Part shown: in pieces, positions 3,287-62,227 of the stretch
How positions within the stretch are numbered: the first letter of the stretch is position 1
How the letters are laid out: the number at the start of each line of letters is the position of its first letter
Source: an uncultured Bacteroidia bacterium
GTDB taxonomy: Bacteria; Bacteroidota; Bacteroidia; Bacteroidales; UBA932
DNA: 64,000 nt
Reading direction: 5' to 3'
Assembly (NCBI GenBank): GCA_902768985.1
Contig: CACXNA010000006.1
Span: 38,531-102,530, forward strand
Translations under genes and position numbers: made by a program
Notes under the pieces: model-generated
The model's database searches: none
The model's input: only the letters and a program-made list of their open reading frames with translations
Told to the model about the DNA's origin: nothing

Positions 3287-3291
3287 TAGTC

Positions 3292-3354: not shown

Positions 3355-3368
3355 CTCGTTTTTTTATG

Positions 3369-3376
3369 TATATTTG
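3369..3376 (+). promoter_or_regulatory. -7 box almost touching the aminotransferase start
   Basis: TATATTTG ends only 7 nt before the ATG at 3384. Transcription should start 5-7 nt after the box, giving a leaderless or near-leaderless mRNA. It also rules out the in-frame upstream ATG at 3366. Confidence 0.7.
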
Positions 3377-3383
3377 CGCTATT

Positions 3384-4577
3384 ATGGAAATCTCGCAGCG
3401 AGCACAGAACATGCCTTCTTCCCCGATCCGGAAGCTGGCGCCGTACGCCGACGCGGCCAAGCGCAACGGCGTGCATGTCTATCACCTCAATATCGGCCAG
3501 CCAGACATCAAGACCCCGCAGTGCGGTCTTGACGCCCTCAAGGCTGTGGATCGCAGCATCCTGGAGTACAGCCCCTCCGACGGCTACCTCTCGCTGCGTA
3601 CCAAGATGGTGCAGTACTACGCAGAGTACGGGATTTACCTTTCTCCGGAGGAGATCATCGTCACCACCGGCGGCTCCGAGGCGGTGCTGTTCGCGTTTTT
3701 GGCTTGCCTCGGGCCGGGCGACGAAGTGATCGTCACGGATCCGTTCTACGCCAACTACATGGCCTTCGCCATCTCTGTGGGCGCCGTGATCAAGAGCGTC
3801 AAGACCAACATCGAGGACGGCTTCCGCCTGCCCTCCGTGGAGGCGTTTGAGGAGCAGATCACCCCGCGCACCAAGGCCATCCTGATTTGCAACCCCAACA
3901 ACCCGACGGGTTACCTTTATACCCGCAAGGAGATGCAGCGCCTGCGCGATATCGTCAAGAAACACAACTTGTTCCTGTTCAGCGATGAGGTCTACCGTGA
4001 GTTCATCTACACGGGCATGCCGTATATCTCCGCCTTCCACATGGAGGGGATTGAAGAGAATGTCGTGCTGTTCGACTCCGTGTCCAAGCGCTACTCCGAG
4101 TGCGGCATCCGCATCGGCTGCCTCTGCACGAAGAACAAGGCCGTTCGCGACGCGGTGATGAAGTTCTGCCAGGCGCGCCTGTCGCCGCCGCTGCTCGGCC
4201 AGATCGTCGCCGAGGCGACGATGAGCGTGCAGAAGGAGTATCTGCACAGCGTGTATGAGGAATATCTCGAGCGGCGCAACTTCCTGATCGACGGGCTCAA
4301 CAAGATCCCCGGCGTGTATTCGCCCATCCCGATGGGCGCTTTCTACACGATGGCGAAGCTCCCCGTCGACGATGCCGAGAAATTCTGCATCTGGTGCCTG
4401 CGTGACTTCCAGTACGAAGGCGCCACGGTCATGATGGCGCCCGGCGCCGGCTTCTATACCGAGCCCGGCGAGGGCCGCCAGGAGGTCCGCATCGCCTACG
4501 TCCTCTGCAAAGAGGACCTCGCCAAGGCCCTCGTCGTCCTCCAGAAGGCCCTCGAGGCCTACCCTGGACGCCTCTAG
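3384..4577 (+). CDS. PLP-dependent class I aminotransferase
   Basis: A 397-residue fold-type I aminotransferase in the aspartate aminotransferase group. The N-terminus ISQRAQNMPSSPIRKL and HLNIGQPDIKTP match family openings. CNPNNPTGYLY provides the conserved Asn-Pro turn, SDEVYREFIY the Asp that pairs with the PLP ring, and LFDSVSKRYSECGIRIG the Schiff-base Lys. The amino donor is probably aspartate, an aromatic amino acid or alanine; the sequence does not decide. The ATG at 3384 is chosen because an upstream ATG at 3366 falls inside the promoter box and because homologues begin at this residue. It is followed by the repeat array at 4619. Confidence 0.9.
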   Translation: MEISQRAQNMPSSPIRKLAPYADAAKRNGVHVYHLNIGQPDIKTPQCGLDALKAVDRSILEYSPSDGYLSLRTKMVQYYAEYGIYLSPEEIIVTTGGSEAVLFAFLACLGPGDEVIVTDPFYANYMAFAISVGAVIKSVKTNIEDGFRLPSVEAFEEQITPRTKAILICNPNNPTGYLYTRKEMQRLRDIVKKHNLFLFSDEVYREFIYTGMPYISAFHMEGIEENVVLFDSVSKRYSECGIRIGCLCTKNKAVRDAVMKFCQARLSPPLLGQIVAEATMSVQKEYLHSVYEEYLERRNFLIDGLNKIPGVYSPIPMGAFYTMAKLPVDDAEKFCIWCLRDFQYEGATVMMAPGAGFYTEPGEGRQEVRIAYVLCKEDLAKALVVLQKALEAYPGRL

Positions 4578-4618
4578 CCGCCTCGCACACAACGCCAACG
4601 CACGGGCGCCCGGCTTCA

Positions 4619-4748
4619 ATCCTCATTTGAGCCCTTTTTTGAGGATGCAGATCGGTTTTGGCCTGGTTTATCCTCAAAATGGGGCTGTTTTGAGGATGGA
4701 AGCTGGTTTTTGGAGGGTTTGTCCTCAAATCGGGGTGTTTTTGAGGAT
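4619..4748. repeat. Upstream array of three 28-nt palindromes, 51-nt period
   Basis: Units lie at 4619-4646, 4670-4697 and 4721-4748, each 28 nt and starting exactly 51 nt apart. Arms are (A/G)TCCTCA(AAA) and (TTT)TGAGGAT with a variable centre. The two 23-nt spacers (4647-4669, 4698-4720) resemble each other, sharing a GGTTTTGG-like core and ending in GTTT. The array is mirrored by one at 6382-6511 on the far side of the two-gene unit. This looks like a REP/BIME array belonging to the adjacent transposase-like gene. Confidence 0.9.
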
Positions 4749-4846
4749 TTGAAGAAAGATTATCGGGGTTAGTTTTTTCTTTTCGCGAAAAATCCCTATC
4801 CTTGTACTCGGAGTGAGGCCTTTGTTTAACCAATAAAGGTTTCTTT

Positions 4847-5440
4847 ATGGAGACTATTGAAAAACCCGTCGCCTCCCCGTCAACCCGGGAGGCCCTCATC
4901 CAGGAAGTTCTGGATGAACACCGTTCCCTGGCGCATGGTGCGCTGGATGATCTTATGTACGAGGCCTTCCTCGAGATTGGCCGTATTCTCAACACCCCGG
5001 ACAGCGAAGATCCTGGCGAGGCCCAGGCCGGAAGTCTTGCGCCTGCTCCTATTCAGGCTGTGAGCGGCATGTCCGCCTTTGCCTTGCGGCAGATCCAGCA
5101 CCATGCCGCCGCCGGAGACCTCGCGGATTGGCTGGCAGGCGGCGCCGACAAGGACAAATACCTCTACCTGCGCGATTTCCTGAATCTCGGCAAACTGCAA
5201 GCCGAAGAGCTGCGCCAGCGCTACCCAAAAGCTTTCACGAAGTGGACCGACGACCAGGACCAGGCGCTGCTTGCGGAATACCAGCGGGCGGCGGAGGGCG
5301 GAAGGAGAGTGGACTGGAAGAAACTGTCCGAGCCCTTCGGGCGAAATGTTAACGCCATCAAACTCCGCCTGGAGCGGCTCGGGGTTGACCTGGGCGCCGA
5401 GGCAGGCCATTCCAGAAGGCCGGGAGGGCCTGCCCAGTGA
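4847..5440 (+). CDS. Myb/SANT-like putative DNA-binding protein coupled to a RAYT-like gene
   Basis: A 197-residue protein with no family I can name with certainty. The N-terminal half is helical and acidic. The C-terminal part, about residues 127-180, has the tryptophan-spaced pattern of a Myb/SANT or trihelix DNA-binding fold: KWTDDQDQALLAEYQ, then VDWKKLSEPF, then GRNVNAIKLRLERLGV. The start at 4847 follows an AT-rich leader, with a possible -7 box (TATCCTTG) at 4797-4804. Its TGA overlaps the GTG start of the next gene (GTGA at 5437-5440), so the two are almost certainly co-translated. Position between mirror-image repeat arrays suggests it helps the transposase-like protein find or process these repeats; that role is inference. 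Confidence 0.75.
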   Translation: METIEKPVASPSTREALIQEVLDEHRSLAHGALDDLMYEAFLEIGRILNTPDSEDPGEAQAGSLAPAPIQAVSGMSAFALRQIQHHAAAGDLADWLAGGADKDKYLYLRDFLNLGKLQAEELRQRYPKAFTKWTDDQDQALLAEYQRAAEGGRRVDWKKLSEPFGRNVNAIKLRLERLGVDLGAEAGHSRRPGGPAQ

Positions 5441-6405
5441 ATCCGGAATCCGTATGCGAGGCCGCCTTTTCCCGGGGCGGCCCGTATTGGCATCTCTATA
5501 CGGATGGGGACGGGATGCCGATCTTTTTTGCGGAACCGGTCGATTTCGTGTTCGGTATCACGTTGTTGGGGATGAGTGCAGCGGAGATTCCCCGCTGCAG
5601 GATTATCACTTTTACGTTGATGAGCAATCATATACACGTCATCCTGGCTGGTTCTGAGGCAGATGTCCGCGCCTTTTTCTCCCTGTTTCGGGCGCGCCTG
5701 CAAAGATATCTCGCCAGAAAGAAACGCTTTTGGCCTTCCGAGCGCTTCGAGGCTTCGCTTTTCCGCATTCCCGACCTGCGCGCGCTTCGCAGCGAGATTA
5801 TCTACGTCAACCGTAACGGTTATGTGGTCTCGCCGGACTGTACACCGTTCTCTTATTGGTGGAGCGCTGGCGCATACTTCTTTAACCCGATGGCCGGGTT
5901 GCTCCCTACTGCTTCATTTGCGGAACTGCCACTTCGGGAGCGACGGGAGATGTGCCATAGCCGGGAGGCGGATCTGCCCGACCATTACAGAGTGCTTTTG
6001 TGTTTGCCCCTGCCGGCGGACAGGAAAGTCGGCCCCGTCCTGGCGGCCCCTTCGTTTTGCGCCTTGGGGGAAGCGGAATCGTTCTTCCGGGATGCACACC
6101 AGTATTTTCGCCTGCTCGGCCGAGACCAGGAAGCGCAGGCGGAGGTGGCGCGGCGGCTGGGAGATAAGGTGTTTCTGACGGACGACGAGCTGTTCGGAGC
6201 CGTCTGTGCCTTGTGTGCCAAAGAATATGATGTTTCCAATCCTGTCCTGGTACCTGCCGACGGGAAATTGGACCTTGCCCGGAAGATGCATTTCGACTAT
6301 AACGCCTCCAACAAACAGATCCAGCGGATGCTACGGCTGTCGCCCGCCATCGTCGAAGACCTCTTCCCGAGCGCCAAACCTATCCTCAAAAACACCCGGA
6401 ATTGA
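5437..6405 (+). CDS. RAYT-like HUH (Y1, IS200-type) transposase
   Basis: A 322-residue protein read from a GTG that overlaps the upstream stop. Residues about 60-75 read IITFTLMSNHIHVILAG; HIH is the metal-binding HUH motif of Y1 transposases. The segment LRSEIIYVNRNGYV (about residues 117-130) corresponds to the helix carrying the catalytic tyrosine in IS200 and REP-associated tyrosine transposases. The C-terminus (LARKMHFDYNASNKQIQRMLRLSPAIV) looks like a helix-turn-helix, as in RAYTs that end in a DnaA-like DNA-binding part. RAYTs cut single-stranded REP hairpins and are single-copy, domesticated elements. The stop codon TGA (6403-6405) lies inside the first downstream palindrome. Which tyrosine is catalytic is not certain by eye. 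Confidence 0.85.
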   Translation: MNPESVCEAAFSRGGPYWHLYTDGDGMPIFFAEPVDFVFGITLLGMSAAEIPRCRIITFTLMSNHIHVILAGSEADVRAFFSLFRARLQRYLARKKRFWPSERFEASLFRIPDLRALRSEIIYVNRNGYVVSPDCTPFSYWWSAGAYFFNPMAGLLPTASFAELPLRERREMCHSREADLPDHYRVLLCLPLPADRKVGPVLAAPSFCALGEAESFFRDAHQYFRLLGRDQEAQAEVARRLGDKVFLTDDELFGAVCALCAKEYDVSNPVLVPADGKLDLARKMHFDYNASNKQIQRMLRLSPAIVEDLFPSAKPILKNTRN

Positions 6406-6511
6406 GGATAAGTCCGTCCAAAACCGACTTCTGTCCTCAAATACACCCCATTTTGAGGATAAACCAGCCAAAAACCAGTTTCTGTCCTCAAAACTAGGCC
6501 AAAATGAGGAT
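6382..6511. repeat. Downstream array of three 28-nt palindromes, inverted orientation
   Basis: Units lie at 6382-6409, 6433-6460 and 6484-6511, again 28 nt with a 51-nt period. The spacers (6410-6432 and 6461-6483) are A-rich with an AAAACC-type core and match the reverse complement of the upstream spacers, so the two arrays are in opposite orientation around the gene pair. The first unit overlaps the last codons and stop of the transposase-like gene. Confidence 0.9.
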
Positions 6512-6568
6512 AGGAGCCGGTTTGCCCGTGCGGGGGCGTTGCGGAGGGCGGAGTGGAAGCCAGAGGGC

Positions 6569-31162: not shown

Positions 31163-31241
31163 GTCCTCAAAAACATGCTGTTTTGAGGACGGAATGCCTT
31201 TTTTCTGTTGTTTGTCCTCAAAAACAGGGTGTTTTGAGGAC
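31163..31241. repeat. Dispersed two-unit copy of the 28-nt palindrome
   Basis: Units at 31163-31190 and 31214-31241, each 28 nt, with a 51-nt period. Arms GTCCTCAAAA/TTTTGAGGAC are the best match to a perfect palindrome. The 23-nt spacer is T-rich and ends GTTT, like the upstream array at 4619. It lies between the carboxylesterase terminator and the end of the GH3 gene. Confidence 0.88.
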
Positions 31242-33861: not shown

Positions 33862-34917
33862 TTATAAATAGTTGATACTGATTTCTTTGGCGGGGCGCAG
33901 GGGGTCGTTGCTGAAGACGGTCAGGCGGGGAGATTCGCCGGTCGGGGCCGGCGAATGACGAGCTGTTAACGTAACCTTCAGCGATTTGCCCGGGGCAATG
34001 CGGAGAGATTCCGGGTCAAGCCCGGAATGACTATATCCGTCCGGGAGTTCGATGGCGTGGATGACCAGGTCGGAGGCGCCGTCGTTGAAGAGCTCGAGGG
34101 TGCCGCGCGGCGTGCGCGCGAGCAGGCCGCGGCGCAGCTCCACGGTGGCGTTGCGCAGCCGCGGCGCGTCGGGCGACTCCGGCGCCTGGGTCAGGCAGAG
34201 GCCGCTGACGGGCAGCTCCCGCAGGGCGGGGAGCCCGTCGGGCGTGAGCCGTAGCGAGGCGCGCAGGGTGGCGAAGTACGCCGGGTCGGCGGGCGCGTCG
34301 CACCAGAGTTCGAGGCGCGCCTCTTCGCCCGGGGCGAGCGTCTCGGGGAAGACGGCGCGGAAGCGCGTCCCCGCGAGCCCCTCGGCGCGCAGGCGCATCG
34401 GGCGGGCGGAGGCGTTCGCGATGAAGACGACCTTGCCGCTGGAGCGGCCGCGCTCGAGGTAGCCGAAGCGGACGTCGGAGCGGCTGGCGTAGAGGCCTTC
34501 GGCCAATACGACCGGGTAGCGCTCCTGGATGCTCCGGTCCGCGGGCAGCACGTCCGCGCGGATGCTGAGGAGCCCGAGGCTGCGGCCGCCGGCCGCCTGG
34601 ATCTCCACGTTGCGCTCCACGAGTCCGGACGCGCCCGCGGGCGTGAAACGGACTTCCACGACGGCGGACTGCCCGGGGGCGATGGCCTCCGAGGGCACGC
34701 TGGCGCTGATGCAGGAGCAGCCGGGGATGGCGCGCGTGAGGCGCAGCGGACGGCTGTCGCCGTTGAATACGGTAAAGGCGTGGGTGACCACGCCGTCTGC
34801 CTCGCGGATGGCGCCGAAATCCCACTCCCGCGAATCGAAAGCCGCCGGCCCTTCCTGTGACAGAAGGACCGGGGCGGCTGTCAAGAGTGCCAGGAGCAGC
34901 AGGACGCCTTTTCTCAT
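33862..34917 (-). CDS. DUF1573-type secreted protein with two in-frame palindromes
   Basis: A 351-residue protein with a signal peptide (MRKGVLLLLALLTAAPVLLS). Residues about 30-115 are a DUF1573 Ig-like domain: FDFGAIREADGVVTHAFTVFN-type pattern and the CSC site GCSCISASVPSEAIAPGQSAVVEV. A second similar unit is near 155-235. The last 65 residues carry two repeats read in frame: type A as GYSHSGLDPESLR and type B as ARHSPAPTGESPRL. It lies 3 nt before the GH3 gene and 1 nt after an esterase gene, so it is in that operon. Function unknown. Confidence 0.75.
   Translation of the reverse strand: MRKGVLLLLALLTAAPVLLSQEGPAAFDSREWDFGAIREADGVVTHAFTVFNGDSRPLRLTRAIPGCSCISASVPSEAIAPGQSAVVEVRFTPAGASGLVERNVEIQAAGGRSLGLLSIRADVLPADRSIQERYPVVLAEGLYASRSDVRFGYLERGRSSGKVVFIANASARPMRLRAEGLAGTRFRAVFPETLAPGEEARLELWCDAPADPAYFATLRASLRLTPDGLPALRELPVSGLCLTQAPESPDAPRLRNATVELRRGLLARTPRGTLELFNDGASDLVIHAIELPDGYSHSGLDPESLRIAPGKSLKVTLTARHSPAPTGESPRLTVFSNDPLRPAKEISINYL
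33933..34028. repeat. Type B and type A palindromes in frame in the DUF1573 gene
   Basis: Type B at 33933-33956 (ATTCGCCGG, 6 nt, CCGGCGAAT); type A at 34008-34028 (ATTCCGGG, 5 nt, CCCGGAAT). Both fall near the 3' end of the gene and keep the frame. Confidence 0.85.
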
Positions 34918-39360: not shown

Positions 39361-39403
39361 TAGCCTTCGGCGCAAAAACTTTCGTTTTCCGTTCAGCGGA
39401 GAA

Positions 39404-41098
39404 TTAGTTCAGGGCGTCGGGGTCGGTGTAGCGGATGGTGACGCCGTAGTCGCGGATGTAGCGGTTCAGGCCGTTGGCGTTCTCCGCCACGCCCTGGCGC
39501 TTGCCGGCGAGGAGCTCCTGCGACATCTTCTTCTCGTCCAGGACGCGCTGCAGCGTCTCCACGTTCGGGCCGCCGTAGTGGCCCGGGAAGAGCTTCTCGA
39601 TGCCGTTCTTCTGCATGTAATCGGCCGTGCGGGTGCAGGTCTCGATCAGGGTGCTGAAGGACGGGACGAAGAGCAGCAGGTTCGTGGAGCCGAAGGCGTC
39701 GCCGCTGAAGCCGTAGTGGCGCTCCTTGTCGAAGAAGGTGATGGAACCGGAGGTGTGGCCCGGGGTGTGGAGCACCTTAATTTCACGGCCGCCGAGGTCG
39801 ATGACATCGCCGTCATTCAGCTCGTGGATTTCGCCCTGGTAGCCTTCGCCGTTGCGCGCAATCATCGGAATGTCAGCCGGATGGATCCAGACCTCCGGGA
39901 AGCAGACGATGCCGCCCACATGGTCGCCGTGGCCGTGCGTGAGGGCCACCATGACCGGCTTGTCGGTCAGCGCGGCCACGGCCTGGTCGAGGTGCGGCAT
40001 ATAGGCGCCCGCGTCGATCAGCAGGGCCTTTTCCTCACCTTCCACGAGGTACACGGATTCATTATAGACTTGGTAGCCGTTGCCCTCCCAGGTGTGCTCG
40101 TCGATCTGGCGGAAGACCACGTCGGCGTCGCGGTAGGCGAACTTCTCGCTGTAGCGCTGGCGGAACTGCTCCGCCTGCTCGGCGCTCCAGGTGATGATGG
40201 CGTCGCCGTGGCGGAAATAGGTCTCCAGGCCCGGCCGGCCAAGGTTCGAGGGCTCGGTGGCGGCGGTGCCGGACTCGATCTCGTCGCAGAGCGCCTTCAT
40301 GTCGCGCAGGTACTGCATGCCGAGTTCCGTCCCCTTGGGGAGGTTCAGCCAGTCCTTCTGCCAGTAATGCCCCCCGTAGATCTTTAGGCGTTTCTCGTTC
40401 ACGCCGCGCTCCTCGAGCGTCCGGATCAGGTACGGCACGCCGGAGACGTACTGGTTGAACGCGTTCGCGTTAAATAGCCACACGCCGTGGCCGGACCCCA
40501 CGGCGTCGCCGCTGAAGAGCAGGTCGCGCCCCTGCAGGAGGTACACCATCGACCCGTCCGTGTGGCCGGGCACGCCGATGGCCTCCAGCTTCAGGCCGCC
40601 GAGGTCGAAGATCTCGCCCTCGTCGAAGAAGCGGGTCCGCTCCTCGGGGAAGCGGTCCGCCAGGCGGGCGAAGTCGATCTGCGGCAGGGCGAACTGCACG
40701 CCCGGGTCATTGACGAAAGCGGGCAGCATGCCCGTGTGGTCGCCGTGGTTGTGGGTGAAGGTAATCGTCAGCGGCATGCCGCCGGCACGCTCCCAGACGA
40801 TGTCGCGCAGCGACTCCGCGGCATTATCCGCCCAGGTAATGGGGTTGGACAGGTCCAGCAGCAGGGCTTCGTTCTTGCCCACGAACAGGTAAATATCCGA
40901 ACAGTTGTTGAAATGGGTCTTGCTCCCCTCCGCGTCGAAAGACTCTCCGGCGGGGTTCTCGCTGTTGTAATCCTGGATGTGGTAGACGTTCTTCTCGATG
41001 ATGGACACGGTGTACGGTCCAACCTCCACATCCTTGGGGGCGGCACAGGCGGCCAGCAGGGCCAGCGCGAAGGCCGGCAGGAGCGGTTTCAGTTGCAT
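39404..41098 (-). CDS. Lipoprotein with two tandem metallo-beta-lactamase domains
   Basis: A 564-residue lipoprotein; start 41098 gives a signal with lipobox (LALLAAC). Two MBL-fold domains follow one another: the first with TFTHNHGDHTG (about residue 125) and GHTDGSMVYLLQG, the second with ALTHGHGDHVGG (about 405) and TPGHTSGSITFF. Both keep the His-x-His-x-Asp-His zinc pattern. Such duplicated enzymes are rare; most MBL hydrolases have one. Substrate unknown; a lactonase or glycan-ester activity would fit the neighbourhood. It has its own promoter and lies before the hemicellulase operon. Confidence 0.82.
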   Translation of the reverse strand: MQLKPLLPAFALALLAACAAPKDVEVGPYTVSIIEKNVYHIQDYNSENPAGESFDAEGSKTHFNNCSDIYLFVGKNEALLLDLSNPITWADNAAESLRDIVWERAGGMPLTITFTHNHGDHTGMLPAFVNDPGVQFALPQIDFARLADRFPEERTRFFDEGEIFDLGGLKLEAIGVPGHTDGSMVYLLQGRDLLFSGDAVGSGHGVWLFNANAFNQYVSGVPYLIRTLEERGVNEKRLKIYGGHYWQKDWLNLPKGTELGMQYLRDMKALCDEIESGTAATEPSNLGRPGLETYFRHGDAIITWSAEQAEQFRQRYSEKFAYRDADVVFRQIDEHTWEGNGYQVYNESVYLVEGEEKALLIDAGAYMPHLDQAVAALTDKPVMVALTHGHGDHVGGIVCFPEVWIHPADIPMIARNGEGYQGEIHELNDGDVIDLGGREIKVLHTPGHTSGSITFFDKERHYGFSGDAFGSTNLLLFVPSFSTLIETCTRTADYMQKNGIEKLFPGHYGGPNVETLQRVLDEKKMSQELLAGKRQGVAENANGLNRYIRDYGVTIRYTDPDALN

Positions 41099-41125
41099 GC
41101 GGAAAATGGTTAGTTGTTTGTGTAC

Positions 41126-41157
41126 CAAATATAAAAACATACTCGCGTAAAAACAAA
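41126..41157 (-). promoter_or_regulatory. Consensus promoter of the tandem-MBL gene (minus strand)
   Basis: Minus-strand -7 TATATTTG at 41126-41133 and -33 TTTG at 41154-41157, with 20 nt between. It lies directly beside a palindromic repeat pair. Confidence 0.8.
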
Positions 41158-41161
41158 CTTT

Positions 41162-41240
41162 GTCCTCAAAAATGCCTGGTTTTGAGGACAAAAGGTAGAA
41201 AAACCGGGTTCTGTCCTCAAATAAAGGCTCATTTGAGGAT
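41162..41240. repeat. Dispersed two-unit copy of the 28-nt palindrome
   Basis: Units at 41162-41189 and 41213-41240, with a 51-nt period. The 23-nt spacer (AAAAACCGGG core, ends TTCT) is of the orientation found in the downstream array at 6382. Confidence 0.88.
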
Positions 41241-62148: not shown

Positions 62149-62227
62149 GTCCTCAAATTTGGCTCGTTTTGAGGATAAGTGGTGGAAAAACCGGCTTTTG
62201 TCCTCAAATTGTGCAGTTTTTGAGGAT
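62149..62227. repeat. Dispersed two-unit copy of the 28-nt palindrome
   Basis: Units at 62149-62176 and 62200-62227, with a 51-nt period. The 23-nt spacer (AAAAACCGGC core) has the orientation of the array at 6382. It lies between the Nudix and GH95-like genes, directly before the latter. Confidence 0.88.

Follow-up and report, generated by a model that had tools for sequence, protein, structure and literature searches.

The stretch of DNA analyzed here (the window) comprises 64,000 nt of contig CACXNA010000006.1 (GenBank assembly GCA_902768985.1, positions 38,531 to 102,530, forward strand), from an uncultured, gut-type Bacteroidia bacterium (Bacteroidales; UBA932) with a genome of 2.35 Mb. 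Near one end it carries two overlapping open reading frames (ORFs) with palindrome arrays on both sides; the downstream ORF encodes a protein resembling REP-associated tyrosine transposases (RAYTs; REP, repetitive extragenic palindrome), hereafter the enzyme, and the upstream ORF encodes a putative partner. An earlier note on this DNA had placed three palindromes at exact 51-nt steps on each side of the gene pair, and a pattern search confirmed both the coordinates and the spacing. Palindromes of the form TCCTCA-N14-TGAGGA start at 4620, 4671, and 4722 on the left and at 6383, 6434, and 6485 on the right, with every step within both arrays exactly 51 nt. When the gap was allowed to vary from 14 to 16 nt, the pattern matched 12 times in the window, compared to a mean of 0.01 in 100 shuffles. 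Together, the left and right regions make up an inverted pair of 139 nt with 78% complementarity, and a short outer inverted pair (4590-4607 and 6524-6541) is 89% complementary. The two ORFs (4847-5440 and 5437-6405) share 4 nt, and the stop codon of the enzyme, TGA at 6403-6405, falls inside the palindrome at 6382-6409. The locus is laid out as follows.

4590..4607, + strand: outermost left arm, inverted relative to 6524-6541 (89% complementary pair)
4619..4646, no strand: left palindrome 1 (pattern match)
4647..4669, - strand: 23-nt spacer with reverse-strand polarity (spacer orientation)
4670..4697, no strand: left palindrome 2 (pattern match)
4698..4720, - strand: 23-nt spacer (spacer orientation)
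4721..4748, no strand: left palindrome 3 (pattern match)
4847..5440, + strand: partner ORF, 197 aa, C-terminal Myb/SANT-like helix-turn-helix (weak match to Pfam Myb_DNA-bind_6)
5437..6405, + strand: RAYT-like HUH-Y1 protein, 322 aa, GTG start overlapping the partner stop (motifs, predicted fold)
5626..5637, + strand: NHIH, codons 64-67, the HUH motif (N64, H65, and H67 invariant)
5803..5805, + strand: codon of Tyr123, the predicted catalytic tyrosine in YVNRNG (invariant in 28 and 53 members)
6046..6366, + strand: C-terminal helical region, residues 204-310 (AlphaFold helices, conserved C-terminal motif)
6382..6409, no strand: right palindrome 1, holding the stop codon of the enzyme (pattern match)
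6410..6432, + strand: 23-nt spacer (spacer orientation)
6433..6460, no strand: right palindrome 2 (pattern match)
6461..6483, + strand: 23-nt spacer (spacer orientation)
6484..6511, no strand: right palindrome 3 (pattern match)
6524..6541, - strand: outermost right arm (89% complementary pair)

Scans of the locus for terminators (3 found, 2.6 expected) and promoters remained at chance level, and a search for known RNA families gave a single match (E 0.086, 25 bits compared to a gathering score of 101.7).

The dispersed copies of the palindrome define the repeat unit. By exact pattern, the genome holds 69 copies and no match to a reversed-pattern control. All 28 neighbouring exact copies lay 51 nt apart, 26 of them among the copies listed genome-wide (unfiltered) and two at the locus L060. 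We examined 52 of the 69 copies, six beside the gene pair, six elsewhere in the window, and 40 spread over 19 fetched stretches. By exact match, the dispersed sites (22 read) were 14 doublets, five triples, and three singles. In a set of 14 units classed as doublets and oriented by their spacers, conservation averaged 1.33 bits in the first palindrome, 1.04 in the spacer, and 1.08 in the second palindrome; the five bases immediately preceding the unit gave 0.36 bits, and the rest of the flanks did not exceed 0.17. These sharp ends and the conserved spacer indicate that the dispersed unit is mostly palindrome-spacer-palindrome, 79 nt in length (28+23+28), with a directional spacer. Six of the 12 palindromes in the window formed three such doublets away from the gene pair, missed by the earlier note, and appear intergenic by reading.

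31163..31241, - strand: dispersed 79-nt doublet; both palindromes shared with sister genome G101, while the corresponding intergenic stretch of G103 lacks the doublet
41162..41240, + strand: dispersed 79-nt doublet, bordering a segment that G101 and G102 carry in inverted orientation
62149..62227, + strand: dispersed 79-nt doublet

The enzyme was assigned to the Y1 class in the earlier note on the strength of its HUH motif, and conserved residues together with the predicted fold bear this out. Curated profiles gave little signal: the window protein had no row for Pfam Y1_Tnp up to E 1 and scored 14.1 bits with NCBIfam REP_Tyr_transpos, below the cut-off of 80. Among 28 aligned family members, weak matches were obtained to Y1_Tnp in 12 (best E 0.0071) and to REP_Tyr_transpos in 11 (best E 0.00068), and the family profile matched ISDra2 TnpA in the PDB at E 0.029. 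N64, H65, and H67 (NHxH) and Tyr123 were invariant in these 28 members and in a larger alignment of 53. Because the named loci of the latter were found partly by a pattern containing the HUH stretch, Tyr123 is the more independent evidence. The tyrosine motif has the consensus YVNRNG, with R126 and N127 invariant in the 53. An AlphaFold model of the 322-residue protein, built from the 53 aligned sequences, had a mean predicted local distance difference test score (pLDDT) of 91.5, and its best PDB match was 4er8, in which the E. coli REP transposase is bound to a REP hairpin (Foldseek E 1.5e-3, probability 1.00, template modelling score by target 0.61), followed by ISDra2 and then IS608. None of the PDB matches reached E <= 0.001, and they span at most about 150 columns of the 322 residues. 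Collectively, these results predict an HUH-Y1 catalytic core (HUH plus one tyrosine). The C-terminal part was modelled as helices between residues 204 and 309 (block pLDDT 83 or more) with a conserved C-terminal motif, and we propose, from the model, that residues 204-310 may form a second DNA-contact region.

The window's own genome contains a single full copy of the enzyme; besides this, the search matched two ORFs (26-27% identity) and a 35-residue fragment. The ratios of nonsynonymous to synonymous divergence (dN/dS) were 0.10 and 0.14, pointing to purifying selection, and there was no match among 72,556 plasmid or 50,697 phage records. Judged by sequence comparison, the enzyme is a single-copy gene that is vertically kept, rather than an ordinary IS200 element present in many identical copies. 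With a single-copy enzyme flanked by palindromes that are dispersed genome-wide, the REP/RAYT layout claimed in the earlier note stands.

We surveyed 101 genomes, 61 from a genus-level group that includes the window's own genome (G000) and 40 others (the 11 listed ones belong to the same order). Matches to the enzyme were present in 52, all within the genus-level group, and other genomes of that group hold several divergent family members. For comparison of flanks we used the best 80 of 193 relatives found in one scan of named genomes; their titles are Bacteroidales, Bacteroidia, or Rikenellaceae, uncultured or metagenome-assembled. Of 156 flanks, 102 were periodic (z of 4 or more), 74 at 51 nt, 11 at 102, five at 52, and the other 12 over nine lags; a second run with another seed gave 101 periodic flanks, 73 at 51 and 11 at 102. 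A flank at 51 or 102 nt was found in 57 of the 80 loci. In control segments, periodicity was seen in 10 of 133 distal segments of the same loci (two at 51) and in 12 of 84 window segments (one at 51). Phased palindromes were called in 68 of the 80 loci, compared to 3 of 55 distal control pairs. These 68 loci yielded 54 different 9-nt arm consensuses, some differing only by register, which merged into 36 groups at a shared word of 7 and 17 groups at a word of 6. The pitch is common to the relatives, and the arm letters are not. The unusual regularity of the spacing, remarked on before in the window, holds in both the genome and the relatives. Two truncated family members that lack the HUH motif (L041 and L045) have flanks with no significant period, as expected if arrays need an active enzyme.

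Two 51-nt codes were examined genome-wide across the group, the window's palindrome and the arms of enzyme L021. Copies of the window's palindrome number 69 in its own genome and 0-3 in every one of the 60 congeners, and 14 of the 61 genomes have at least one. Reciprocally, TTGTTCC-N18-GGAACAA, which flanks L021, occurs 16 times in the genome of L021 (G045) and 0-1 times in each of the other 60. The repeats are thus tied to the enzyme, as the earlier note had supposed, and wide occurrence of the palindrome in genomes that lack the gene pair was not found among these congeners.

The same aminotransferase gene stands beside the unit in five relatives (L079, L080, L081, L082, and L087). In L079, L080, and L082 the unit is collinear with that of the window; in L081 and L087 it is reversed, an arrangement that inverted arrays would permit. 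The window, L079, and L082 have TCCTCA/TGAGGA arms, and L080 and L081 have TCCACA/TGTGGA arms; at this locus, 87% enzyme identity goes with the former arms and 65% with the latter. Among 31 copies in the genome of L080, the new base pair was present on both sides in 22, on one side in eight (hybrids), and on neither in one, while the 29 copies in the genome of L079 comprised 26 of the old type and three hybrids. The switching stem pair was matched in 97% of 79 distinct copies compared to 78% when shuffled (unoriented count). Across the family, an arm word of 7 or more was shared by 12 of 12 enzyme pairs with at least 90% identity, 59% of 39 pairs at 80-90%, and 1% of 674 pairs at 40-50%. Arm similarity fell with enzyme identity (Mantel r 0.48, reached in 0 of 2000 permutations, 69 loci, shared descent uncorrected). 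These comparisons indicate that changes in the arms are compensatory, extend across the genome, and accompany those in the enzyme.

A distant paralogue, L019, is flanked by palindromes of a different kind, GGGGAAGG-N19-CCTTCCCC. Eleven of these occur in the window's own genome, where four pairs at exactly 75 nt account for eight. In G034 there are 27, including 13 pairs at 75 nt, and G040 has five, at 62-63 nt or single; any copy was found in 7 of 61 genomes. Since pairs at 51 and at 75 nt occur in the same genome, two pitches coexist there, and the pitch seems to belong to the enzyme lineage.

Other traits of the locus proved less general. The mirror-image arrangement of the arrays, emphasized in the earlier note, holds in the window, while relatives are mostly direct (44 direct compared to seven inverted among the 51 loci with a clear left-right match, of 77 with both flanks), and it was rejected as a defining trait. 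Conservation of phase across the gene in direct-orientation loci was likewise rejected, with offsets modulo 51 scattered over 40 loci. The position of the stop codon within the first downstream palindrome is real in the window and not general: the first detected right-hand palindrome begins before the ORF end in 9 of 68 loci. The partner protein (197 aa) matched Pfam Myb_DNA-bind_6 at E 0.0036, below that model's cut-off. A dedicated partner gene exists at this locus and in the closest lineage. Beyond that lineage it was rejected as a defining part of the system, because five of the 80 loci have it next to the enzyme, among them L081, where it lies at a contig edge, and L079, where it is divided between two frames; this count is a lower bound, as some loci have short upstream DNA. 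Partner homologues were also present in 5 of 60 congeners, with no enzyme beside them in the stretches read.

We consider it probable, at roughly 0.75, that the locus is a REPtron-like system in which a vertically kept, single-copy, RAYT-like HUH-Y1 enzyme is paired with cognate REP-like repeats, spreads hairpin units, and holds their pitch through its contact surfaces. This reading draws on the mostly two-hairpin 79-nt units found genome-wide, the near-invariant 51-nt pitch, the match of repeats to enzyme lineage, and the joint divergence of arms and enzyme. By analogy, the enzyme would bind single-stranded hairpins on the lagging-strand template, where Tyr123 would nick the single strand and the two-hairpin unit would be copied or moved to new intergenic sites. 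Two contact surfaces, either the HUH core and the helical C-terminal region or two protomers, may hold consecutive hairpins 51 nt apart, and we infer that the pitch is read by these surfaces as a ruler. Selection would then act strongly on the spacing, and the arm letters could drift by compensatory change provided that the hairpin reader of the enzyme kept up; the arrays beside the gene could serve as a home stock of active copies. The shared spacing of hairpins that differ in sequence hints that the enzyme may measure distance and not one fixed sequence. A bolder version, which we advance tentatively and at somewhat less than even odds, is that this is an HUH family whose substrate code lies in distance more than in sequence, with arbitrary arms, a pitch fixed for each lineage (51 here, 75 in the paralogue), and dozens of parallel, mutually exclusive codes evolving by compensatory switching at fixed loci within one genus-level group of gut Bacteroidales.

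Several results weigh against the REPtron-like reading. G103 encodes an apparently intact enzyme and has only four palindromes, so possession of the enzyme is no guarantee of a large repeat family; two palindromes were counted in G104, whose enzyme is truncated. No clean empty site was found among three sites viewed in sister genomes. The doublet is absent from G103 at the 31163 site and from G102 at site A of L177, in stretches too rearranged to show a seamless insertion, and 5 of 10 sister-genome stretches examined match doublet sites of the window's own genome, which implies that movement is slow. Pairing of palindrome 1 with palindrome 2 into a long hairpin was no better than expected (0.743 observed and 0.744 shuffled, 39 oriented units), nor was pairing of the inner palindromes or of the spacer in oriented units better than shuffled. 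Single-sequence folds do give a long two-palindrome hairpin in several units; a long doublet hairpin, a spacer hairpin, and pairing within palindromes were all unsupported once units were oriented. The pitch is not absolute, with values of 50 and 52 nt in some family members, 52 in arrays mixed with a second palindrome family, and 27 of 30 neighbouring copies in four sister genomes at 51 (the others at 48, 49, and 72). Lastly, the arm-enzyme correlation partly reflects shared ancestry, and common descent could account for part of the constant pitch.

Taken further, this last point would make the 51-nt pitch a frozen accident, one ancestral tandem array with drifting arms, rare indels, and no functional ruler. 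The 51-nt members seen do belong to one protein family, present only in the genus-level group (101 genomes), and pitches of 50 and 52 in some members, 48, 49, and 72 in single sister-genome copies, and 75 in the distant paralogue are compatible with it. We regard this as unlikely, though not negligible, since the arms have diverged far (54 consensuses, 36 groups, 68 loci) and yet 85 of 102 periodic flanks are at 51 or 102 nt and own-genome neighbours at 51 in 28 of 28 cases; neutral spacers with such substitution should have gained or lost more bases. The repeats might instead be host regulatory or structural sites (a transcription stop, mRNA end protection, or a nucleoid-protein site), with the enzyme as passenger or maintenance factor. 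Roles of this kind have been assigned to known REPs (PMC8266576, accessible portion), and the three dispersed window doublets lie between genes by reading. This is improbable given a terminator scan at chance level and a repeat sequence that tracks the enzyme rather than the host, congeners with other enzymes being nearly free of the window's palindrome.

It is similarly improbable that the SANT/Myb-like partner is the repeat-binding protein and the enzyme just copies what the partner marks. The stop/start overlap with the enzyme, retention at the same locus in the closest relatives, and the weak DNA-binding match are in keeping with such a role, but a flank at 51 or 102 nt is present in 57 of the 80 loci and the partner in five, and in L079 the partner gene is broken across two frames. 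An insertion sequence of the IS200 type, mobile as a whole and ending in the arrays, would explain arrays on both sides of the gene, the Y1 transposase fold, and the reversal of the unit relative to its neighbours in L081 and L087. We consider it very improbable given one full copy in the genome besides two ORFs at 26-27% and a 35-residue fragment, a unit at the same aminotransferase gene in L079, L080, L081, L082, and L087, purifying selection on the enzyme, and the lack of a plasmid or phage match.

Among known systems, as described in the accessible portions of the papers cited here, the REPtron-like locus resembles the RAYT/TnpAREP REPtrons of E. coli, Stenotrophomonas, and Marinomonas (PMC8266576), which share a single-copy Y1 enzyme, bordering palindromes spread genome-wide, and cognate pairing; the E. 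coli enzyme with its hairpin (4er8) is also the top structural match. It differs in lacking a GT[AG]G foot before the palindrome (0 of 104 ends within 8 nt in 52 own-genome copies, 4.1 expected at equal base frequencies), although GTGG is present inside the spacer of many dispersed copies. It differs also in its tyrosine motif (YVNRNG compared to Y..xNP), in a family length of about 310 aa with a C-terminal helical region, about twice the usual, and in a 51-nt pitch with a conserved one-way spacer where REPtrons alternate REP and inverted REP. The earlier note described RAYTs as mainly Proteobacterial, but RAYTs of Bacteroidetes are already in print as TnpAY1 subclass 2.6, or RAYT group 5 (PMC6006769). 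By its published description, this is the nearest printed group. It shares the phylum, NH[LIV]H, and, around the genes, 'atypical secondary structures' that recur elsewhere in the genome; by the same description it differs in median length and tyrosine motif (179 aa and YIH[QN]NP compared to 322 aa and YVNRNG).

Pseudomonas REPIN doublets (PMC3116915) are likewise dispersed two-palindrome units with group-specific spacing (71 or 110 bp) and a cognate enzyme. REPINs, however, are inverted pairs with a less conserved spacer that form one hairpin, whereas here the pairing test fails and the spacer is conserved. TIRtrons, or TIRYTs (PMC3733652), also have a Y1 gene between terminal repeats, some of them dispersed, but the repeats here are phased palindromes, mostly in direct orientation in relatives. 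Unlike IS200/IS605, the window's system lacks several near-identical mobile copies. Because three features of classical RAYTs are lacking (a curated-profile match above cut-off, the foot tag, and the tyrosine motif), we did not file the system in a named subclass; it is a variant of the REP/RAYT kind, with fixed spacing and free letters, whose mechanism we infer. The passages and abstract openings consulted from the RAYT, REP, REPIN, and REPtron literature, Bacteroidetes and Bacteroidales included, make no mention of a 51-nt pitch or of this long family.

These findings bear on how RAYTs recognize, spread, and co-evolve with their repeats, at a time when three to four REPtrons have been studied at the bench (PMC8266576, accessible portion). 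One genus-level group provides many natural enzyme-repeat pairs with unlike arms and nearly constant spacing, including a relative caught switching one stem base pair (the hybrid copies) and two pitches in one genome. Recognition, the proposed ruler, and code-switching thereby become testable by swap experiments, and the family could add single-strand DNA cutters with distinct specificities.

Further palindromes and rearrangements were noted. A second palindrome family, GTGCGCAAAA..TTTTGCGCAC, has nine forward matches in G000 (C1:134961, C3:87674, C3:136949, C5:17985, C7:59803, C7:59854, C13:53762, C18:7825, and C23:13699) and none in the control; some lie 51-52 nt from TCCTCA palindromes, forming the mixed arrays, and no cognate enzyme was recognized. 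Among L189 (G101 C12, between 15449 and 16471) and own-genome copies, a GGGCAC/GTGCCC-armed palindrome has AAAATGGGGCGCTGGT as its inner core, which differs little from the core AAAATGGGGTGCTGGT of copies with TCCTCA arms, so that the arms look as if swapped while the core was retained. About 1.7 kb of the window (39400-41240) has the opposite orientation in G101 and G102; the 41162 doublet lies close to one breakpoint, and G102 has two GGGGAAGG palindromes near the breakpoint region. A third, distant family member (L017 / L061, G000 C3:65648-66601, 317 aa) has HUH- and Tyr-like motifs, and its surroundings yielded no repeated palindrome. Compared with L079, the enzyme gene (5437-6405) shows a synonymous divergence of 0.75, roughly threefold that of the neighbouring aminotransferase gene (0.25, 3366-4577), which suggests exchange or a different codon constraint at the locus. 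Short palindromes also occur in the window at 3288, 19681, 34005, and about 33933-33962: ATTCCGGG..CCCGGAAT followed by GACT at three places (one of them with a mismatch), with further blast matches in sister genomes, and ATTCGCCGG..CCGGCGAAT followed by GACG. These GACT- and GACG-followed palindromes resemble the CGTC-tagged REPs described in the accessible part of PMC3733652.

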